Notes: generated from the sequence alone by a model not told the origin. 62,781 nucleotides of DNA from a virus (IMGVR_UViG_3300030202_003006:1-62781), one strand, 5' to 3'. Numbered from the stretch's first letter, positions 30,857 through 45,959 are shown. Made by a program: numbers and translations.

Positions 30857-31807
30857 TTATTTTCTAGCTATTTCATAGTTGTTATTAAACCACTCTATGG
30901 TTTCTTTTAACCCCTCATCTAAACTGGTAAATTTAAAATCTGGTAAATAAGATAACAATTTAGTATTGTCACTAGGTTTTCTAAATTGCCCATCGGGTTT
31001 GTCACTTTGCCAAATAACTTCACCACTAAACTCCATATGTTTAACTATTAGGTTAACCACTTCTTTTATAGAAATTTCTTCAGAAGTACTCAATATTAAT
31101 GGTTCTTCCTCATTATAGTTTTCTATTACCCATTCAGTTAATTTACCAACATCTTTTGAGTATATAAATTCTCTTAGGGGTTTACCACTTCCCCACACCA
31201 TAAAAGGGGTATTGTTCTTTTTAGCTAAATAACATTTGTGGATTAATGAGGGTATAACATGACCATTTTCTATATTAAAATTATCGTTTGGTCCGTATAT
31301 GTTAGTTGGTATTACGGATACGTAATCTAAACCATATTGTTCTCTATATGCACGAATTTGTACATCTGCCATTCTTTTAGCATAGGCGTAAGGGTAGTTA
31401 GAATTGTGGGGTTCACCTAGATGTATTTTTTTCTCAGTAAGGGGATACTCCACATTATCTGGAAAAACACATGTAGATAAAAAACATACTAATTTTTTCA
31501 CACCGTATTTCCTACAAGACTCTATTACATTTGTGTTAATCATAATATTGTCGTAAAAAAATTCACCTTTCATATTCATATTACCACCTAGACCCCCAAC
31601 CCTAGCTGCACAATGAACAACATTTAATGGTTTTTTATTTTTAAATAGGTCATCACATATAGTTGGATTACGTAAATCTTGAGAGCTATCGGTTTTTATA
31701 TCTGCGGATATTTGAGAACCGACCAAACCTCTACCACCAGTAACTAATAATTCAGGTCTCCTTACGTGTGACTCACCAATATCTATTATTTCCATATCAC
31801 TTTTCAT
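30857..31807 (-). CDS. fcl: GDP-L-fucose synthase
   Basis: NADPH-dependent epimerase/reductase that turns GDP-4-keto-6-deoxy-D-mannose into GDP-L-fucose. It is an extended short-chain dehydrogenase: nucleotide-binding TGGRGLVGSQ (about 23-32), the family-specific HCAARVGGLGGN, the catalytic Ser in FLSTCVFPD and the Tyr/Lys pair in YPYAYAKRMAD, then IPTNIYGPNDNF and VWGSGKPLREFIY. At 316 residues it is normal for Fcl (about 320). It overlaps gmd by 11 bases, so the two steps are translationally coupled and the phage makes GDP-fucose once GDP-mannose is supplied by the host. Confidence 0.93.
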   Translation of the reverse strand: MKSDMEIIDIGESHVRRPELLVTGGRGLVGSQISADIKTDSSQDLRNPTICDDLFKNKKPLNVVHCAARVGGLGGNMNMKGEFFYDNIMINTNVIESCRKYGVKKLVCFLSTCVFPDNVEYPLTEKKIHLGEPHNSNYPYAYAKRMADVQIRAYREQYGLDYVSVIPTNIYGPNDNFNIENGHVIPSLIHKCYLAKKNNTPFMVWGSGKPLREFIYSKDVGKLTEWVIENYNEEEPLILSTSEEISIKEVVNLIVKHMEFSGEVIWQSDKPDGQFRKPSDNTKLLSYLPDFKFTSLDEGLKETIEWFNNNYEIARK

Positions 31808-32774
31808 AGTACTCTAACCAATATTCAATCATTTCATCCATCATACTTCTAAAGTCATATTCTGGACTCCACCCTAATTGAGCTTTTATTTTTGTACAGT
31901 CACCTTTAAGATGCTCCAACTCCTCAGGTCTCAAATATTTCTTATCCTGTTTTACGTATTTTTCCCAATCTAGTTCCAAAGAACTAAAAACATATTCAAC
32001 TAAATCTTTAACACTATGAGAAATACCAGTAGAACATACAAAATCATCACTTTTATCGTGTTGTAAAATTAACCACATAGCGTACACATAGTCTTTTGCG
32101 TGACCCCAGTCACGACTTGCATATAAATTTCCTAATTTTAATTCATTGGATAAACCTAATTTTATTTTTACCGCTTCTTTAGCGACCTTATTAGTTACAA
32201 AGTTTGTACCTCTCCTTGGTGATTCATGATTAAATAATATTCCATTAGAGATAAACATTTTATAAGAGTTTCTATAATTTCTACAAATATTATAAGAAAA
32301 AACCTTAGCACACCCATAAGGTGATACTGGGTCCATAGGGGTGGTCTCTCTTTGATACCCATCTTCATCTATATTATTACCAAACATTTCTGAACTACTT
32401 GCTTGATATACTCTTATTTTTGTATTGGTTAATCTAATAGCCTCTAATAAATTTAATGTACCTAAACCAGTTACTTGAGAGGTGTAAAGTGGTTGGTCAA
32501 AACTTATTCTCACATGTGATTGTGCAGCTAAATTATAAACTTCATCAGGTTTACATTTTTGTAAAACATTAATTAATGACGACATATCTAATAAATCTCC
32601 ATAAACTAAGTTAAGTTTTTTGTATATATTATCAGGTATTCTTGCTGTTTGATTTTCAGAAACTGAATTTCTTTTAAGAATACCCCATACATCGTAACCT
32701 TTTTTTAACAATAATTCTGCTAGGTATGAACCATCTTGGCCATTTATCCCAGTTATTAAAGCTGTTTTTTTCAT
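31797..32774 (-). CDS. gmd: GDP-mannose 4,6-dehydratase
   Basis: Converts GDP-D-mannose to GDP-4-keto-6-deoxy-D-mannose, the branch point to fucose, perosamine, colitose and related sugars. Visible: TGINGQDGSYLAE (8-20), NLAAQSHVRISFDQP (81-95), the catalytic region QASSSEMFG (124-132) and YGCAK (Tyr153, Lys157), NHESPRRGTNFVTNKV, and the RPEELEHLKGD segment typical of GMD. At 325 residues it is slightly shorter than E. coli Gmd (373). The following fcl gene overlaps it. The same product could also feed the DegT-type aminotransferase at 40713. Confidence 0.95.
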   Translation of the reverse strand: MKKTALITGINGQDGSYLAELLLKKGYDVWGILKRNSVSENQTARIPDNIYKKLNLVYGDLLDMSSLINVLQKCKPDEVYNLAAQSHVRISFDQPLYTSQVTGLGTLNLLEAIRLTNTKIRVYQASSSEMFGNNIDEDGYQRETTPMDPVSPYGCAKVFSYNICRNYRNSYKMFISNGILFNHESPRRGTNFVTNKVAKEAVKIKLGLSNELKLGNLYASRDWGHAKDYVYAMWLILQHDKSDDFVCSTGISHSVKDLVEYVFSSLELDWEKYVKQDKKYLRPEELEHLKGDCTKIKAQLGWSPEYDFRSMMDEMIEYWLEYYEK

Positions 32775-33264: not shown

Positions 33265-33876
33265 TTAATTGATTTGGTTATATAGTTTAAAATCCTCAGG
33301 GTATAACAACTCAATCCTATCTTTATATTTTTCTAGTAATGGACTTAAAGCCTCTTTTACAGTGACGTTACCCACATTAAACTTTTCTATTACAACTTCA
33401 TCACCCACAAGAGTACTAATTTGGTCATTCATCTCTTCGAACCTTAAAAAATTAGTTACATTTTTTATTTTCCTAGGTATTAAAAATAAGTCCGGTACTG
33501 TATAACCTTCTAAAAAAGTATATTGTGGTAAGTTATGACTATCGAAAAAACCATTACGTTCTATTTCACTAATATAAAGTTCAAAAGATTCTGGTAACTT
33601 AGATTTTCTAAATATATCATCTTCTACGTTTGGTGGTAACTTACGAAAGGTATGTTCTTTATTTCCCATACCATAAAGTTTTTTAACTTCTATATACCCA
33701 GATAAAAATCTTTTTAAAGGATTTCTTATCATAGTAAATATTTTTCTATCTTCTGGTAAAAGTTGTATGTCGGTCCATACTAAAGGTAAACTGTTTATTA
33801 TAGCAGTCATCCCATTTTTAGTTATGTGGTAAAATTCCACATTGTAGTCTTTGTTGTATAATGTTTTATTTATCAT
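33265..33876 (-). CDS. Sulfotransferase-like protein
   Basis: Visible elements of PAPS-dependent carbohydrate sulfotransferases: the 5'-phosphosulfate loop HITKNGMTAI (residues 17-26, Lys20) and the 3'-phosphate motif MIRNPLKRFLSGY (49-61, Arg51 and the downstream Ser), followed by a helical C-terminal half. The 203-residue length fits compact bacterial sulfotransferase-2 members. It would add sulfate to a sugar hydroxyl, using PAPS from the host. It overlaps the upstream glycosyltransferase gene by 4 bases. Sulfated surface glycans are common in marine Bacteroidota environments, which fits. Confidence 0.7.
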   Translation of the reverse strand: MINKTLYNKDYNVEFYHITKNGMTAIINSLPLVWTDIQLLPEDRKIFTMIRNPLKRFLSGYIEVKKLYGMGNKEHTFRKLPPNVEDDIFRKSKLPESFELYISEIERNGFFDSHNLPQYTFLEGYTVPDLFLIPRKIKNVTNFLRFEEMNDQISTLVGDEVVIEKFNVGNVTVKEALSPLLEKYKDRIELLYPEDFKLYNQIN

Positions 33877-34838: not shown

Positions 34839-35645
34839 TTATTTTGTCATTAAGGTTTCTCTTATATATTGTTTTAGTGTACAATTCTTCGTGTAATTAA
34901 CTCTTTTTACAGAAAAGTAACCATCACGTAACTTTTCATCAATCTGCTGTTGAGTTAGTATGTTATTAAACCCTAAACCAACACCAGGTCTGTTAGATGG
35001 GTCGTAAGTCCCAAAAAAAGGAGGAAATTCCCAGTCTTGACCACTTTTTAGAATCATGTAAGGTAAAAACATATTAATCATATCTTCATTAGGGTAATAT
35101 TCTAAACATAAGTCTATATATTTTTGAGCTAAAAACATAACTTCTTTAGTAACAGTTAAACACTCCCAGTTAGCCACCATAGGTGTGGTCTCTAATTCTA
35201 TGGCTTTATAAAAATCTTTAGCGTCCCATCTACCATAAGGTTGTTGTAAGGGAAAACCTTCGACAGTTTTGTCGGTATCTTTACCGTTATATTTCTGACC
35301 CCAATCCTCTTTATGATAATATTGAGCGTAATTAACCCCTAAATCAAATTTAATTTCATTTATAAAATATTGATTAGCTGAAACTAAACAAAAGTGGTCA
35401 AATGAATTTATTTCTTCTTTAGTTAAATCTTTTATTAATTTACTTAAAGGACCAAATATAAAACTAGATTTATTTAAAACACCCAAAGGTGTATTTAAAC
35501 GAGTCTTTGGGTGAGTCATATTAGGGTGTAAAATCATAAAATCACTATCAGTGTGGAAATAATTGATGTTATCAATCATATCGTCAACGTCCTCTATCGT
35601 ATGCTGAGTAGAGTGCGCAAAAATTATAAAACAAGTTTTACTCAT
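34839..35645 (-). CDS. Putative glycosyltransferase (possibly GT14-like)
   Basis: MSKTCFIIFAHSTQHTIEDV at the start, then FMILHPNMTHPKTR, FDHFCLVSANQYFINEI and TTPMVANWECLTVTKEVMFL. The opening I-I-x-A-H and the central F-x-L-V-S-A-N motif recall core-2/I-branching (GT14) transferases, but the similarity is weak and no DxD is obvious. Alternatives are another GT-A-type enzyme or a non-catalytic partner. It shares one base with the gene upstream (stop/start overlap), so translation is coupled to the aldolase-like enzyme. Confidence 0.5.
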   Translation of the reverse strand: MSKTCFIIFAHSTQHTIEDVDDMIDNINYFHTDSDFMILHPNMTHPKTRLNTPLGVLNKSSFIFGPLSKLIKDLTKEEINSFDHFCLVSANQYFINEIKFDLGVNYAQYYHKEDWGQKYNGKDTDKTVEGFPLQQPYGRWDAKDFYKAIELETTPMVANWECLTVTKEVMFLAQKYIDLCLEYYPNEDMINMFLPYMILKSGQDWEFPPFFGTYDPSNRPGVGLGFNNILTQQQIDEKLRDGYFSVKRVNYTKNCTLKQYIRETLMTK

Positions 35646-36967
35646 TATTTTTTGTATGCTTTTATGGAATTTATTAAACCTTCATTATTAAATGAAATCA
35701 AATCAACCACATTTAATATTTCTTTATTATTTATTGTTATTTTTATATCTATAGCAAATTCAGTACCGTCATCATTAGAATAAAAATTTAATGGAGTAAC
35801 CTTAATAGAATCTACAGAAAGGAAAATATTTTTATTGGCTTGAATTACATCAGCTTTACCACTTACAGATATGTCCCAATCACTCAATGTAACATCATCA
35901 GAAAACATACTTGAAAGATTGGTAATGTCTTTATTGGAAAATCGGTTAAAATAAACATTTAACTTATTTTTATTAATTTTACTATCTTCTACCATATTTT
36001 GTATTTTATTTTTTATAACATTCTTTATTTTGGTGTCTATGTTAACACCTAACTTATTTTTTAAGTTTACGAATCTTTTATCAGAAAATACATAGTGACC
36101 ACAGATATTAATTAACTCCTCTTTATTCTCTAAAGGATTAAATTCTGGTGACACCCATTTCTCCCAACGTCTAGACTCTAAACAAATATCAAATAATTCA
36201 TCTAGTAATGTAACGTCAATATTTTTTATTTCTTCTATAATTACCCTAGTTTCAAGTTGACCAAATTCAGGTGCTACATTTATACTATCTAATCCAGTAT
36301 TAAATTTATTTCTAAGTAGATTACGTGTTAAGTAATCGCCATTATGTTCTTTAGATATTAAATTAGTTTTTTTAATGATATTAATCATCTTTTTTAACCT
36401 ATCACTATTGTATGTACCTATATTAGTATTACCCTGTAAAGCAGTACCAGATTGTATTACCACATATTTTATTTTATCGTATATTTCTTTAGGTAATAAA
36501 GATTTTAAATCACTTATTAGATTTGAAACTTCTGTGTGAGTAAATTTACGAATAGCTTCTTCTGTACCTATCTCATAGGTTAAATTTTTATTTAATGAGT
36601 AACCTAAGTTTATAAAGTCTACTGTGGCTTGTAACCCACTTTCATACGATTGGTGCTCTTTCCATACATCTACATGGACCACATCAAAATATTTACAATC
36701 ATTTTTAAATGACTCGATGCCATCATCTTCATAATAACCTTGACCGGGACCACTATGGTCTCTCACCAATAAAACTTTGTCTGTTTTACTTCTTACATAT
36801 TCACAAAAATCTAAAGTTTTCCAGTTATTTACGTAACCACCATCAGACTCAACCTGTCTTCTAGAAGGTATTAAACCCAAAGTAATCCCAGAATTATTAG
36901 AAAATTCAATTACAGAATCGACTATATTCTTACTCATTGGTCCGATAAATATTTTAGTCTCTTTCAT
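35645..36967 (-). CDS. GatZ/KbaZ-like aldolase barrel fused to an NTF2/SnoaL-like domain
   Basis: Residues 1 to about 310 resemble the TIM-barrel of GatZ/KbaZ (tagatose-bisphosphate aldolase family): IPSRRQVESDGGYVNN, LVRDHSGPGQG (zinc-ligand-type His), VVHVDVWKE, TYEIGTEEA, VVIQSGTALQGNTNIGTYNS, SKEHNGDYL, SINVAPEFGQLETR. Residues about 320-440 form an NTF2/SnoaL-like module (LNVYFNRFSNKDITNLSSMF, through DDVTLSDWDISVSGKADVIQ). The fusion suggests a two-step sugar-forming enzyme or an aldolase with a ligand-binding tail. It overlaps the kinase/nucleotidyltransferase gene by 4 bases (ATGA), so the two probably act consecutively. The exact sugar is unknown. The family call is from pattern memory, not a search. 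Confidence 0.6.
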   Translation of the reverse strand: MKETKIFIGPMSKNIVDSVIEFSNNSGITLGLIPSRRQVESDGGYVNNWKTLDFCEYVRSKTDKVLLVRDHSGPGQGYYEDDGIESFKNDCKYFDVVHVDVWKEHQSYESGLQATVDFINLGYSLNKNLTYEIGTEEAIRKFTHTEVSNLISDLKSLLPKEIYDKIKYVVIQSGTALQGNTNIGTYNSDRLKKMINIIKKTNLISKEHNGDYLTRNLLRNKFNTGLDSINVAPEFGQLETRVIIEEIKNIDVTLLDELFDICLESRRWEKWVSPEFNPLENKEELINICGHYVFSDKRFVNLKNKLGVNIDTKIKNVIKNKIQNMVEDSKINKNKLNVYFNRFSNKDITNLSSMFSDDVTLSDWDISVSGKADVIQANKNIFLSVDSIKVTPLNFYSNDDGTEFAIDIKITINNKEILNVVDLISFNNEGLINSIKAYKK

Positions 36968-38520
36968 AACTTTAGTGATTTATATAAATTTATTTTACCT
37001 AGATAGAATAAAAATCTCCCCATCCTAGGTTCATGTAATGGAGCCATATTTAACCAAACCAAAGAGGTTAACACTTTCACTTTTTTTAAGTCGTAACCTT
37101 TTTTTTCTATAAAATAGTGTAATTTTTTTCTACATTGTGATAATATATCACTCCTAAGAATATCACATCTAATTTCACCGTTATTAGATTTTACATTATA
37201 ATGACCTTCATTTACAATATCATGGTTAAATAATAGATTATGATTTAATTTAGCCAAATCATAATATATGTCCCCATAATATAAATCCCCACCAAAGTCC
37301 TGTCTCCAATCTAATAGTTTAAATGATAAATTACCTTCATATATAATATTGTCTAAAATATAATCACCGTGAAATTGATAGGGTGTAGATTTACACAGCC
37401 AGTCCTTATCAATACCATTTAACATTTCTAAGACAGGTGGTACATCATAACCATTAATTTTTTGTTTAGAATCTACAATATTATGTTCTTTTAGAAAAGA
37501 ATTTATTCTAGATACACTTTTATCAAAATAGAAGTTATCACAAGTAGAGTAAAAATTAGTTTTAGTAGATTTTTTGTGCCATAAATTATTTAGACTCCAC
37601 TCTAAAAATGAATCAAAAAGATTTTCATTTACTACCGTAGAAAATAAATCTCCTTTAGCATATTCATATTTATAAAAATTGTCTTTAAAGTCTAGTATTT
37701 TTGGTGTTAGTTTACCCAGAGAATTACCACGAAGAACTCTATTTTTACACATCTCTTCCGAGTAAAAAAACTTTATAACAAAAGAATCAAATAAAAATAT
37801 AGATTCGTTGACCTTATCTAGAACCTCAAACTTATCCGAAACAGATTCCCTAGATTTTTTTAGTTCCGACACGTTACCCACATCTAACCAAGAATTAAAA
37901 TTAATAACCGACCAAGTATCCTTATCTATAATTTTGTTAAGCGAATGACAATCACTTAATTTACTATTATTTGGGTCCTCTAAATAAGAAATTTCAAGTT
38001 CCTTCCAAAAATTTTGGTAGTCATTAATTCCAGCTAAACCTATATATGCAAGTTTTGAACCCATTTCACCCTTCTCAAAAATCTTTAGACTAGTATCTGT
38101 CCCAACAGTTCTATATTGAGAATGATTGATTTTTTCACAGACACCAATCCAATTACTAGTTGGTGCGTCCACTTTTTCGTTTATAATCGTATCAGAAGCG
38201 TGAAAAATGAAAGGTTGTTGTAAATATTTTTTTGTTTTTAATAGAGAATAACCTAAACTAGAACCTTCACCCTCATAATTATCTATCTCGACAAATGTGA
38301 AGTTCTTATTTGGGTACGCAAGTTCTAGAAAATCTTTTACGTGTTTACCATAATAACCTAACGTTATTACAAATTTAGTATCATTTGGATAACTTTCTAT
38401 AATATAGGATATAGCAGGTTTTTTACCTACTCTAATAAGACATTTGTTAGTGTAGGAGGTTAATTCACCCAACCTACTACCGACCCCACTAGTTGTTATT
38501 AAAACTTTATAATTTTTCAT
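36964..38520 (-). CDS. Bifunctional sugar nucleotidyltransferase / APH-type kinase
   Basis: Residues 1 to about 220 are a sugar-phosphate nucleotidyltransferase: ITTSGVGSRLGELTSYTNKC with the Gly-x-Gly-x-Arg loop, then CLIRVGKKPAISYIIESYPN and the HASDTI metal site. Residues about 235-518 form an aminoglycoside-phosphotransferase/choline-kinase fold: FHGDYILDNIIYE (about 382-394, Brenner motif), LLDWRQDFGGD and IYYDLAKLNHN. Such a pair can phosphorylate a sugar at the anomeric position and then make the NDP-sugar, as FKP does for fucose, though this is not FKP-like in sequence. It is coupled to the GatZ-like aldolase gene by a 4-base overlap. The substrate is unknown. Confidence 0.75.
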   Translation of the reverse strand: MKNYKVLITTSGVGSRLGELTSYTNKCLIRVGKKPAISYIIESYPNDTKFVITLGYYGKHVKDFLELAYPNKNFTFVEIDNYEGEGSSLGYSLLKTKKYLQQPFIFHASDTIINEKVDAPTSNWIGVCEKINHSQYRTVGTDTSLKIFEKGEMGSKLAYIGLAGINDYQNFWKELEISYLEDPNNSKLSDCHSLNKIIDKDTWSVINFNSWLDVGNVSELKKSRESVSDKFEVLDKVNESIFLFDSFVIKFFYSEEMCKNRVLRGNSLGKLTPKILDFKDNFYKYEYAKGDLFSTVVNENLFDSFLEWSLNNLWHKKSTKTNFYSTCDNFYFDKSVSRINSFLKEHNIVDSKQKINGYDVPPVLEMLNGIDKDWLCKSTPYQFHGDYILDNIIYEGNLSFKLLDWRQDFGGDLYYGDIYYDLAKLNHNLLFNHDIVNEGHYNVKSNNGEIRCDILRSDILSQCRKKLHYFIEKKGYDLKKVKVLTSLVWLNMAPLHEPRMGRFLFYLGKINLYKSLKL

Positions 38521-43100: not shown

Positions 43101-44456
43101 TTAGTTATTCTCCAAATAATATTTTAAATCTTCAGGAGTCCCTAACCCCCACATCTTTTCTATATTATATGTTTTTATTTTTTTACCATCCTTTATTGCT
43201 TCATTAAAAACTGGACACACATAAAATTCGTTATTAACTCTAACATCTTCATCTATCATTTGTTCTGCATATTTTACAAAATCAGAACCTTGTTTCCACC
43301 AGTAAAATCCTACTGTTGCAATATTTGATATTGGGTTTTTTTCTGCTACTTCAGTAACCAACCCCTCCTCATCTATTTTTGCAAATGACCATTTAGGGTG
43401 TGTAGCTTTAAATGATACGATACCTCCATCTACACCAGTCTCATTCATTTTATACATAAACTCATTTGAGTCCCACTCAACGAACTGGTCAGAGTTTGCG
43501 AAAAACAAAGGATTATCGTTATTTATATAATCTTTAGCTAATAACGCTGTACACGCGGCACCCTCAGTCATCCCATCAACTTCCACCACACTACACCCTG
43601 GAGTTATTAAGTTTAATAGTGTATCTAAGTTATATTTTTCACGATGTGATTTCTGTACCACATATATAAAATTAGCGTCTATATTAAGATTCTCAACTAC
43701 TACTTGAATCATAGGTTTATTCCTAACATCTATAAGAGGTTTTGGGAATGTGTACCCAGCTTTTTCGAATCTAGAACCCGCACCTGCCATAGGAATTAAT
43801 ACATTTAATTTTTCGTCTTTCCAAGGTGGAGTATTAGTTTTTTCTCCCATTTTTATATCTTTTATTTTTTTTATTATATTATCCAAAGTGACTTCTTTGG
43901 TGTTTTTAACTCTTAATATATGAGATTTACTTCTTGATGCAGCTAATAATCCGTACGGCGAATCCTCAACAATTAATGTTTCTTCTGGTAGACAACTCAT
44001 TTTTGAGATAGCTTTCCAGTACATTTCTGGATGTGGTTTTGAATTTTGCACATCTTCGTTTGAAATAACCAAATCCATATATTCCATAATACCTAATTTA
44101 GATAAAACTGTCAAACATGTTTTTCTTATGGAATTAGAACATACTGCTATTTTATATTTTTTTGATAGTTTTGACATTATATTTTGCAGTTTTTTACAAG
44201 ATTCTAATTCTTTTAGTTTTTTAAGAGTTATATTTTGTTTATGTATCCATATATCGTTATGTTTATTTTTAGGTAAACCCTTATTTTCCGATAGCATGTC
44301 TAGTTTTTGTCTGGTTTTTAAACCATCATAAGTACTTAAATGTTCACTCCAAGAAATGGAATATTTTTCACCCAGAGCTTCATTTAATGCCTCATAATGT
44401 AATTGTTTGGCTTCTACCAAAACACCATCCAAGTCAAATATAACTAATTTAATCAT
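43101..44456 (-). CDS. HAD phosphatase fused to sugar nucleotidyltransferase
   Basis: Residues 1 to about 200 are a HAD phosphatase: FDLDGVL (Asp8 nucleophile, Asp10), AVCSNSIRK, NSKPHPEMY (Lys140), LIVEDSPYG (Glu164, Asp165). Residues 217-451 are a nucleotidyltransferase: NVLIPMAGAGSRFEKAG (218-234), KPLIDV (Lys239), LFFANSDQFVEWD (metal site). Such fusions pair a sugar-phosphate phosphatase with an NTP-dependent activating enzyme and may make an NDP-sugar after dephosphorylating another position, as in heptose pathways. The exact substrate is unknown. One long gene with no sign of frameshift; neighbours are 3 and 1 bases away. Confidence 0.8.
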   Translation of the reverse strand: MIKLVIFDLDGVLVEAKQLHYEALNEALGEKYSISWSEHLSTYDGLKTRQKLDMLSENKGLPKNKHNDIWIHKQNITLKKLKELESCKKLQNIMSKLSKKYKIAVCSNSIRKTCLTVLSKLGIMEYMDLVISNEDVQNSKPHPEMYWKAISKMSCLPEETLIVEDSPYGLLAASRSKSHILRVKNTKEVTLDNIIKKIKDIKMGEKTNTPPWKDEKLNVLIPMAGAGSRFEKAGYTFPKPLIDVRNKPMIQVVVENLNIDANFIYVVQKSHREKYNLDTLLNLITPGCSVVEVDGMTEGAACTALLAKDYINNDNPLFFANSDQFVEWDSNEFMYKMNETGVDGGIVSFKATHPKWSFAKIDEEGLVTEVAEKNPISNIATVGFYWWKQGSDFVKYAEQMIDEDVRVNNEFYVCPVFNEAIKDGKKIKTYNIEKMWGLGTPEDLKYYLENN

Positions 44457-45137: not shown

Positions 45138-45959
45138 TTAAAAGATATCATTGTAGTTGTTATAAATCCAGTCTTCAGCTAATTTAAATTGTGTACACTT
45201 ATCTAAATTATTCCTCACACTTGAAATACGATTTACATATTCTGACTCATTTAATCTAGTTAAAATACCATTAAGTTCTTCCACAGAATTAAAATGAATT
45301 ATACCTTTAGAGTCAAAAAAATCGTTTACCTTGGGGGTCCCCCAATATATTGGTATTGTACCCGTCGCAAAACAATCTATAATTTTTTCAGTAAAATAAT
45401 CATCATATTTTATATTTTCTATAATAATTGAAAACATGTAGGGGGATAGCCCATCAGCTTTATAAGGTAGATTGTTTATTCCCCTACCAAAAATATCCAT
45501 GTGGTCTCCAAATTCCTTAATAACTTCATGTCTTAATTTATGTCCTACAGTCTGGTTTTTATTTGATGCAATTATAGATAATAATTTTGTTTTATCATAA
45601 ACTTTAATATCTTCGTCTTTTACCCAACAACCACTATGTGGGTACCATTTAAATTTATCAGGGTCACTTTTAATTAGTTCCTGAGAGTAGGTAAAAACTA
45701 AATCGAATTTGTCTTTTAGATTAACGACTTGATTATATCCATTAGGGTTTACTGATGGTGGTTCTATTAACCACCCTATATTTTTTTTATATTTATAACC
45801 GTTATTTACCACTTGTCCTATAACGTAATCGGTATAAAAACATACATCAGTATCAAACTCATTACGAGTCCAATAAAAATTAGACGGCTTCCTCTCATGA
45901 CATGAAGACTCACCGTGAGCAAAACATATATCTTTTATTAGTACAGGTTTACTCATCAA
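45138..45959 (-). CDS. GT10-type (alpha-1,3/4) fucosyltransferase
   Basis: The C-terminal half carries the GT10 donor-site signature: YMFSIIIENIKYDDYFTEKI (174-193), with the Glu-Asn, then Asp-Asp-Tyr-x-Thr-Glu-Lys, followed by IDCFATGTIPIYWGTPKVND. In this family the residues bind GDP-fucose. The N-terminal half is a GT-B acceptor domain (WLIEPPSVNPNG, FTYSQELIKSDPDK, WYPHSGCWV). 273 residues, compact as in bacterial GT10. It fits the presence of gmd and fcl: the phage makes GDP-fucose and has an enzyme to use it. The acceptor is unknown. Confidence 0.82.
   Translation of the reverse strand: MMSKPVLIKDICFAHGESSCHERKPSNFYWTRNEFDTDVCFYTDYVIGQVVNNGYKYKKNIGWLIEPPSVNPNGYNQVVNLKDKFDLVFTYSQELIKSDPDKFKWYPHSGCWVKDEDIKVYDKTKLLSIIASNKNQTVGHKLRHEVIKEFGDHMDIFGRGINNLPYKADGLSPYMFSIIIENIKYDDYFTEKIIDCFATGTIPIYWGTPKVNDFFDSKGIIHFNSVEELNGILTRLNESEYVNRISSVRNNLDKCTQFKLAEDWIYNNYNDIF

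Follow-up and report, generated by a model that had tools for sequence, protein, structure and literature searches.

The subject of this report is a pair of overlapping genes in a stretch of viral DNA of 62,781 nucleotides (IMGVR_UViG_3300030202_003006:1-62781), here called the window, which are considered as a candidate core of a nucleotide-sugar pathway. The first gene, on the minus strand (38520..36964), encodes a 518-amino-acid protein that joins a sugar-1-phosphate nucleotidyltransferase domain (residues ~1-230), with its GxGxR loop, lysine, two metal-binding aspartates and fold, to an APH-type kinase domain (residues ~231-518) carrying the ATP-binding lysine, the HGDxxxxN motif and DWR; this protein is referred to as NT-APH. 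The second gene (36967..35645, minus strand) encodes a 440-amino-acid protein composed of a GatZ/KbaZ-like TIM barrel (residues ~1-325) and an NTF2/SnoaL-like domain (residues ~330-440; 35645..35985, minus strand). The end of the NT-APH gene and the start of the GatZ-NTF2 gene share the stop/start sequence ATGA (36964..36967, minus strand), which suggests translational coupling, and the same four-base overlap is found in 15 of the 45 viral NT-APH/GatZ pairs that adjoin directly. Both open reading frames lie where a first-pass annotation of the window had placed two overlapping genes.

Scored as single sequences, the domains fall under the Pfam cut-offs (GatZ_KbaZ, 21 versus 26.7 bits; SnoaL_2, 17 versus 27; NTP_transferase, 16 versus 21; APH, 15.5 versus 23). 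Scans of PHROGs and NCBIfam likewise gave weak matches only, and pattern scans from single sequences returned no match, whereas alignment-based scans did yield relatives. The domain assignments therefore rest on profiles, structural models and conserved residues. In the marine virus MH319741, the counterpart of NT-APH is 50% identical across 100% of the 518 residues and the barrel is 51% identical over residues 4-299 (E = 4e-92); the two genes adjoin with the identical overlap, and the barrel is free-standing, lacking the NTF2 domain. The window barrel is also about 30% identical to plasmid and Listeria proteins of the GatZ family (E down to 1e-38). The Listeria "phage" records (OR846727 and three similar ones) carry a bacterial phosphotransferase-system operon with a GatZ-family gene, are probably host contamination, and were left out of the phage evidence.

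A profile of 55 barrel relatives found its best matches in 2FIQ (Escherichia coli GatZ) and 3TXV (Sinorhizobium meliloti), followed by KbaY-like aldolases. The AlphaFold model of the 440-residue protein (predicted local distance difference test score, pLDDT, 93.1; predicted template modelling score, pTM, 0.83) retrieved 2FIQ at Foldseek ranks 1-4 (best E 4e-15), 3TXV at rank 5, and class II fructose-bisphosphate aldolases (FBA) after these. Both searches place the domain in the class II aldolase/GatZ group, as the first-pass annotation had expected. Asp70, His71, Glu136 and His208 of the window barrel align with Asp87, His88, Glu171 and His257 of E. coli GatZ; all four are kept in 83/83 phage rows, while in the 44 cellular rows Asp70, His71 and His208 are always kept and position 136 holds Glu in 31 of them and Asp in the other 13. 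Every one of the 127 rows, viral and cellular, has Glu132, which is thus more constant than Glu136, the residue aligned with the proposed ligand Glu171; judged by this conservation, Glu132 rather than Glu136 could be the true metal ligand.

GatZ and KbaZ, long labelled aldolase chaperones, are C4-epimerases that interconvert fructose-6-phosphate (F6P) and D-tagatose-6-phosphate (T6P) through an active site that has been described (PMC11907403). The gene pair had been thought able to assemble or split a sugar. Epimerisation is more likely, in view of this known activity and of the missing partner: no class II protein GatY/KbaY (PF01116) was found in the 155.9-kb record of the window's virus, a record that is possibly incomplete. 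A bisphosphate aldolase role for the barrel is disfavoured for the latter reason.

With respect to NT-APH, the transferase residues G12, G14, R16, N25, D110, K150 and D213 are invariant, and K26 nearly so, in a set of 51 sequences from viruses and cells; K250, H384-G385-D386, N391 and D404 of the kinase do not vary in this set either. The AlphaFold (AF2) model is confident (pLDDT 93.5, pTM 0.91), and its N-terminal half retrieves RmlA, LicC and MurU in Foldseek. The domain calls made earlier thus hold for both proteins in folds, profiles and conserved residues, and the motifs that had looked intact are so, since metal, catalytic and Brenner-motif residues are conserved in the alignments. A Pfam scan of NT-APH gave no GHMP kinase match. 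Membership in the FKP group (L-fucokinase/GDP-fucose pyrophosphorylase) was rejected, as the kinase is APH-type and the GHMP domain is absent; NT-APH is AmgK/MurU-like rather than FKP-like. The top match of the transferase domain in a single-sequence search of the PDB was the phosphocholine cytidylyltransferase LicC, and this favours a pathway to a cytidine diphosphate-alcohol, in which NT-APH would act as LicC and LicA do for choline and aldol cleavage by GatZ would supply a three-carbon or alditol precursor. The NT-APH profile, however, matches glucose-1-phosphate thymidylyltransferase best and then many sugar nucleotidyltransferases, and the constant partners of the gene are hexose-phosphate enzymes (GatZ or HxlB plus RPE, a KdsC-type phosphatase and a cupin of phosphomannose isomerase type), which makes an alcohol product very improbable.

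A pattern search of IMG/VR gave 402 matches, 362 of them encoding a GatZ relative. The viral sample comprises 84 loci, made up of the 80 best GatZ matches and a few NT-APH-seeded loci, and is biased to close relatives. NT-APH is present in 83 of the 84, with the two genes as direct neighbours in 45 loci and separated by one gene in 37. The cupin, a member of the phosphomannose isomerase C-terminal family (99 bits versus a cut-off of 23.6), occurs in 75/84 loci, either separately or as the N-terminal part of a 638-residue NT-APH, a fusion seen in many viruses, and a small HAD phosphatase occurs in 76/84. This linkage, together with the cupin and the phosphatase, supports the earlier idea of an activated sugar. 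The architecture, for which no phage pathway had been known at first, is by contrast usual in the viral loci and is also found in many bacteria and archaea.

When the NT-APH alignment was used to scan GTDB genomes, 143 relatives were recovered, from which 80 loci were retained. These come from bacteria and archaea of many phyla (Chlorobium, Polynucleobacter, Massilia, Prochlorococcus, Pelagibacter, Geobacter, Patescibacteria, Woesearchaeota and others), and 67 of the 80 contain a KdsC-type phosphatase. Two layouts are seen. The first comprises the KdsC-type phosphatase, GatZ, often another gene, the cupin and NT-APH, to which a methyltransferase is often added; in the second, NT-APH and KdsC are accompanied by HxlB (6-phospho-3-hexuloisomerase) and an RPE-type epimerase. 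GatZ is present in 44 loci and the RPE-type epimerase in 25 (23 with HxlB); no locus has both, and 11, partly on short contigs, have neither. The Fisher p value for this mutual exclusion (1.7e-12) ignores relatedness, and therefore trees of NT-APH were built. In the careful tree, of 41 sequences, there are at least five switches between the two states (bootstrap range 5-5); a quick tree of 135 sequences has nine. Because replacement has been repeated beside the same activating enzyme, GatZ and HxlB+RPE are suggested to supply the same intermediate.

The SIS protein of these loci scores above the HxlB equivalog cut-off (195.7 versus 160 bits). HxlA was above its cut-off in 0/14 genomes with the HxlB+RPE layout, so HxlB probably does not serve formaldehyde fixation there. 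A second rpe match is found in 13 of the same 14 genomes, and the locus RPE, with the loop NPGI.GHK in place of the NPGFGGQ of the housekeeping enzyme in the same alignment, is a paralogue of the latter. HxlB converts F6P to D-arabino-3-hexulose-6-phosphate, which from the carbonyl onward (C3(=O)-C4-C5-C6-P) is identical to ribulose-5-phosphate. RPE would consequently invert C4, and HxlB working in reverse would give T6P; on these stereochemical grounds, HxlB+RPE would turn F6P into the same product as GatZ. A different epimer has also been considered. The locus RPE might be AlsE-like, producing allulose-6-phosphate from F6P, and the present GatZ subfamily might invert C3, with HxlB and the cupin as interchangeable ketose-aldose isomerases and activated allulose, allose or altrose as the product. 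The exchange is indeed symmetrical (GatZ with the cupin in 41/44 cellular loci, RPE with HxlB in 23/25), AlsE is an RPE homologue whose model, PRK09722, is matched at 158 bits, and retro-aldol chemistry would in principle allow rejoining on the other face of the enediolate. That match is nevertheless far under the model's cut-off of 271 bits, the SIS protein is over the cut-off for HxlB, an enzyme of 2,3- and not 1,2-isomerisation, and the known activity of GatZ/KbaZ is at C4 (PMC11907403). Inversion at C3 therefore appears unlikely.

From this computational record of families, folds, motifs, gene linkage and GatZ/HxlB+RPE exchange, the preferred reading, to which we give a probability of about 0.52, is that the pair lies at the heart of a pathway which makes a nucleotide sugar de novo from F6P, beginning with C4-epimerisation by GatZ. 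The reaction order, the T6P intermediate and the anomeric position are those we infer for it. The GatZ-like barrel, as a Zn-dependent retro-aldol/aldol enzyme, would invert C4 of F6P to give T6P; the cupin, in most relatives, would probably isomerise the ketose-6-phosphate to an aldose-6-phosphate of the talose or galactose series; the HAD/KdsC-type phosphatase would take off the 6-phosphate; the free sugar would receive a phosphate from the APH domain, probably on its anomeric carbon; and the transferase domain would convert the sugar-1-phosphate into a nucleoside diphosphate (NDP)-sugar for the surrounding glycosyltransferases. The broader proposal is more tentative, and we hold it at somewhat less than even odds: viruses, bacteria and archaea would share a widespread pathway to tagatose-series sugars activated as NDP derivatives, in which the same C4-epimerisation of F6P would be achieved in either of two unrelated ways, by the GatZ retro-aldol reaction or by HxlB and an RPE paralogue through a 3-hexulose-6-phosphate. 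A literature search gave no description of this pathway; as proposed, it would be new, although assembled from enzyme families that were already known. The capsular fructose of Campylobacter jejuni HS1, compared as a possible link, showed no matching genes.

Several observations weigh against the preferred reading. The cupin that accompanies cellular GatZ is found in 0/25 RPE loci; the routes may differ beyond the epimerisation step, or HxlB may stand in for the cupin. Its absence from all RPE-type loci and from the window's virus indicates that it is not strictly needed, as would be expected if the ketose were activated directly. T6P would then be dephosphorylated and NT-APH would yield NDP-tagatose or another ketosyl donor, leaving the cupin a different role such as anomer selection. 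The membership of the cupin in the phosphomannose isomerase family, its fusion to NT-APH and its frequency in the viral loci speak against such a route, which we regard as rather improbable. As for the barrel, Glu44 and Lys279, reported to distinguish GatZ from FBA (PMC11907403), are not kept in the family of the window barrel: Glu44 is replaced by Ile33, and Lys279 by Asn230, the latter placed by motif and the 3TXV alignment and not by direct alignment with GatZ. The window barrel is hence of a subfamily separate from E. coli GatZ. Finally, neither a PF01050 cupin nor KdsC was found in the 155.9-kb record of the window's virus, possibly a fragment; as to the phosphatase, there is only a weak HAD match 115 kb off (153362-153922 of the record; L195:11063-11623). 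This gene, at ~153.4 kb near the far end of the record, shares its Pfam families with the cassette phosphatase, and is a candidate either for the phosphatase of this virus or for a general phage gene. Without the cupin and a linked phosphatase, the window's virus may rely on its host for the isomerase step and perhaps for the phosphatase step.

Regarding the NTF2/SnoaL-like domain, residues 330-440 form a confident domain in the AlphaFold model, with a helix and a curved sheet of NTF2 type. The barrel-NTF2 fusion noted at first is real; it is, however, a minority detail, seen only in the window and in one relative (L006). Free-standing NTF2 homologues stand beside the barrel or NT-APH in three viruses (L061, L062, L105) and four cells (L136, L148, L176, L181); that of L061 scores 35.3 bits for SnoaL_2 (cut-off 27), and that of L062 is likewise above the cut-off. 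Since an NTF2 gene or domain occurs in just 4/84 viral GatZ loci, the domain was dropped as an essential part; it is an uncommon accessory, which might act as an isomerase or serve to set specificity.

Other genes accompany the pair. Downstream in the window (34839..35645, minus strand) there is a gene for a 268-amino-acid protein with no family match, homologues of which (cluster 18) lie directly 3′ of GatZ(-NTF2) in 10 viral loci; it is a candidate for a further glycan gene in this operon. A short (~211 amino acids) shikimate-dehydrogenase-like (AroE-like) gene is present in 31/84 viral loci (e.g., L029:5379-6011), between NT-APH and GatZ or just 3′ of GatZ, and near NT-APH in six cellular loci. 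In many loci, both cellular and viral, NT-APH or GatZ is followed by a methyltransferase-like gene of ~377 amino acids (L163:8576-9706; viral cluster 10, L019:6959-8089); methylation of the cassette sugar or of its glycan is a possibility.

The terminase, portal and head genes mark the window's virus as a T4-like phage, and the region around the cassette is rich in glycosyltransferases. The activated sugar may be destined for the virion, for DNA or for surface glycans of the host. On the minus strand, 30857-32774 and 45138-45959 encode a GDP-mannose 4,6-dehydratase (403 bits), an NAD-epimerase and a GT10 fucosyltransferase; the NAD-epimerase could be a GDP-fucose synthase, and the set perhaps a complete phage L-fucose branch. 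Also on this strand, 43101-44456 encodes a protein in which a beta-phosphoglucomutase-type HAD domain is joined to another sugar nucleotidyltransferase (phrog_3980, E 1e-78), a remote relative of NT-APH at most, and 33265-33876, in the same glycan region, encodes a sulfotransferase-like protein (Sulfotransfer_2, 23.6 versus 22 bits; phrog_3347).

If the proposal is true, the microbial sugar alphabet would gain a building block, together with the route by which it is made, and the proposal would give a function to the glycan-locus proteins named "tagatose-bisphosphate aldolase non-catalytic subunit". It would also give HxlB and RPE a new use, and would provide enzymes for making tagatose or talose nucleotides. 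Phages would be carriers of near-complete cassettes for rare-sugar activation.

Compared with known systems, the window barrel has in common with the GatZ/KbaZ family (PF08013; 2FIQ, 3TXV) the fold, the gene family and the Asp-His, Glu and His metal/catalytic residues. It differs in its divergence (~30% identity to Listeria and Klebsiella members, ~15% when its structure is matched to 2FIQ), in its NTF2 fusion and in its location in a glycan locus, the known members acting in galactitol or N-acetylgalactosamine catabolism. FKP, the example named at first, likewise unites kinase and nucleotidyltransferase in one protein; its kinase, however, is of another superfamily, GHMP, and it salvages free fucose. 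LicA and LicC also pair an APH-superfamily kinase with a nucleotidyltransferase for one substrate, and a LicCA fusion exists in Treponema denticola, but the substrate is choline and the cluster has no hexose-phosphate enzymes. The GmhA/HddA/GmhB/HddC heptose pathway applies an isomerase, a kinase, a phosphatase and a nucleotidyltransferase to a ketose-phosphate, a logic shared with the present cassette; it differs in having a GHMP kinase that acts before the phosphatase, a seven-carbon substrate and no GatZ- or RPE-type epimerase. The closest functional logic is that of MupP-AmgK-MurU, a HAD phosphatase, an APH anomeric kinase and a nucleotidyltransferase that recycle N-acetylmuramic acid (MurNAc) to UDP-MurNAc (PMC5371407). 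By analogy, the same succession would operate in the proposed pathway: a HAD phosphatase that takes off the 6-phosphate, an APH-type kinase that yields the sugar-1-phosphate and a nucleotidyltransferase that activates it. The present system differs in uniting kinase and transferase in a single protein, and in the origin of the sugar, which is salvaged in the MurNAc pathway and is proposed here to arise de novo from F6P by epimerisation.

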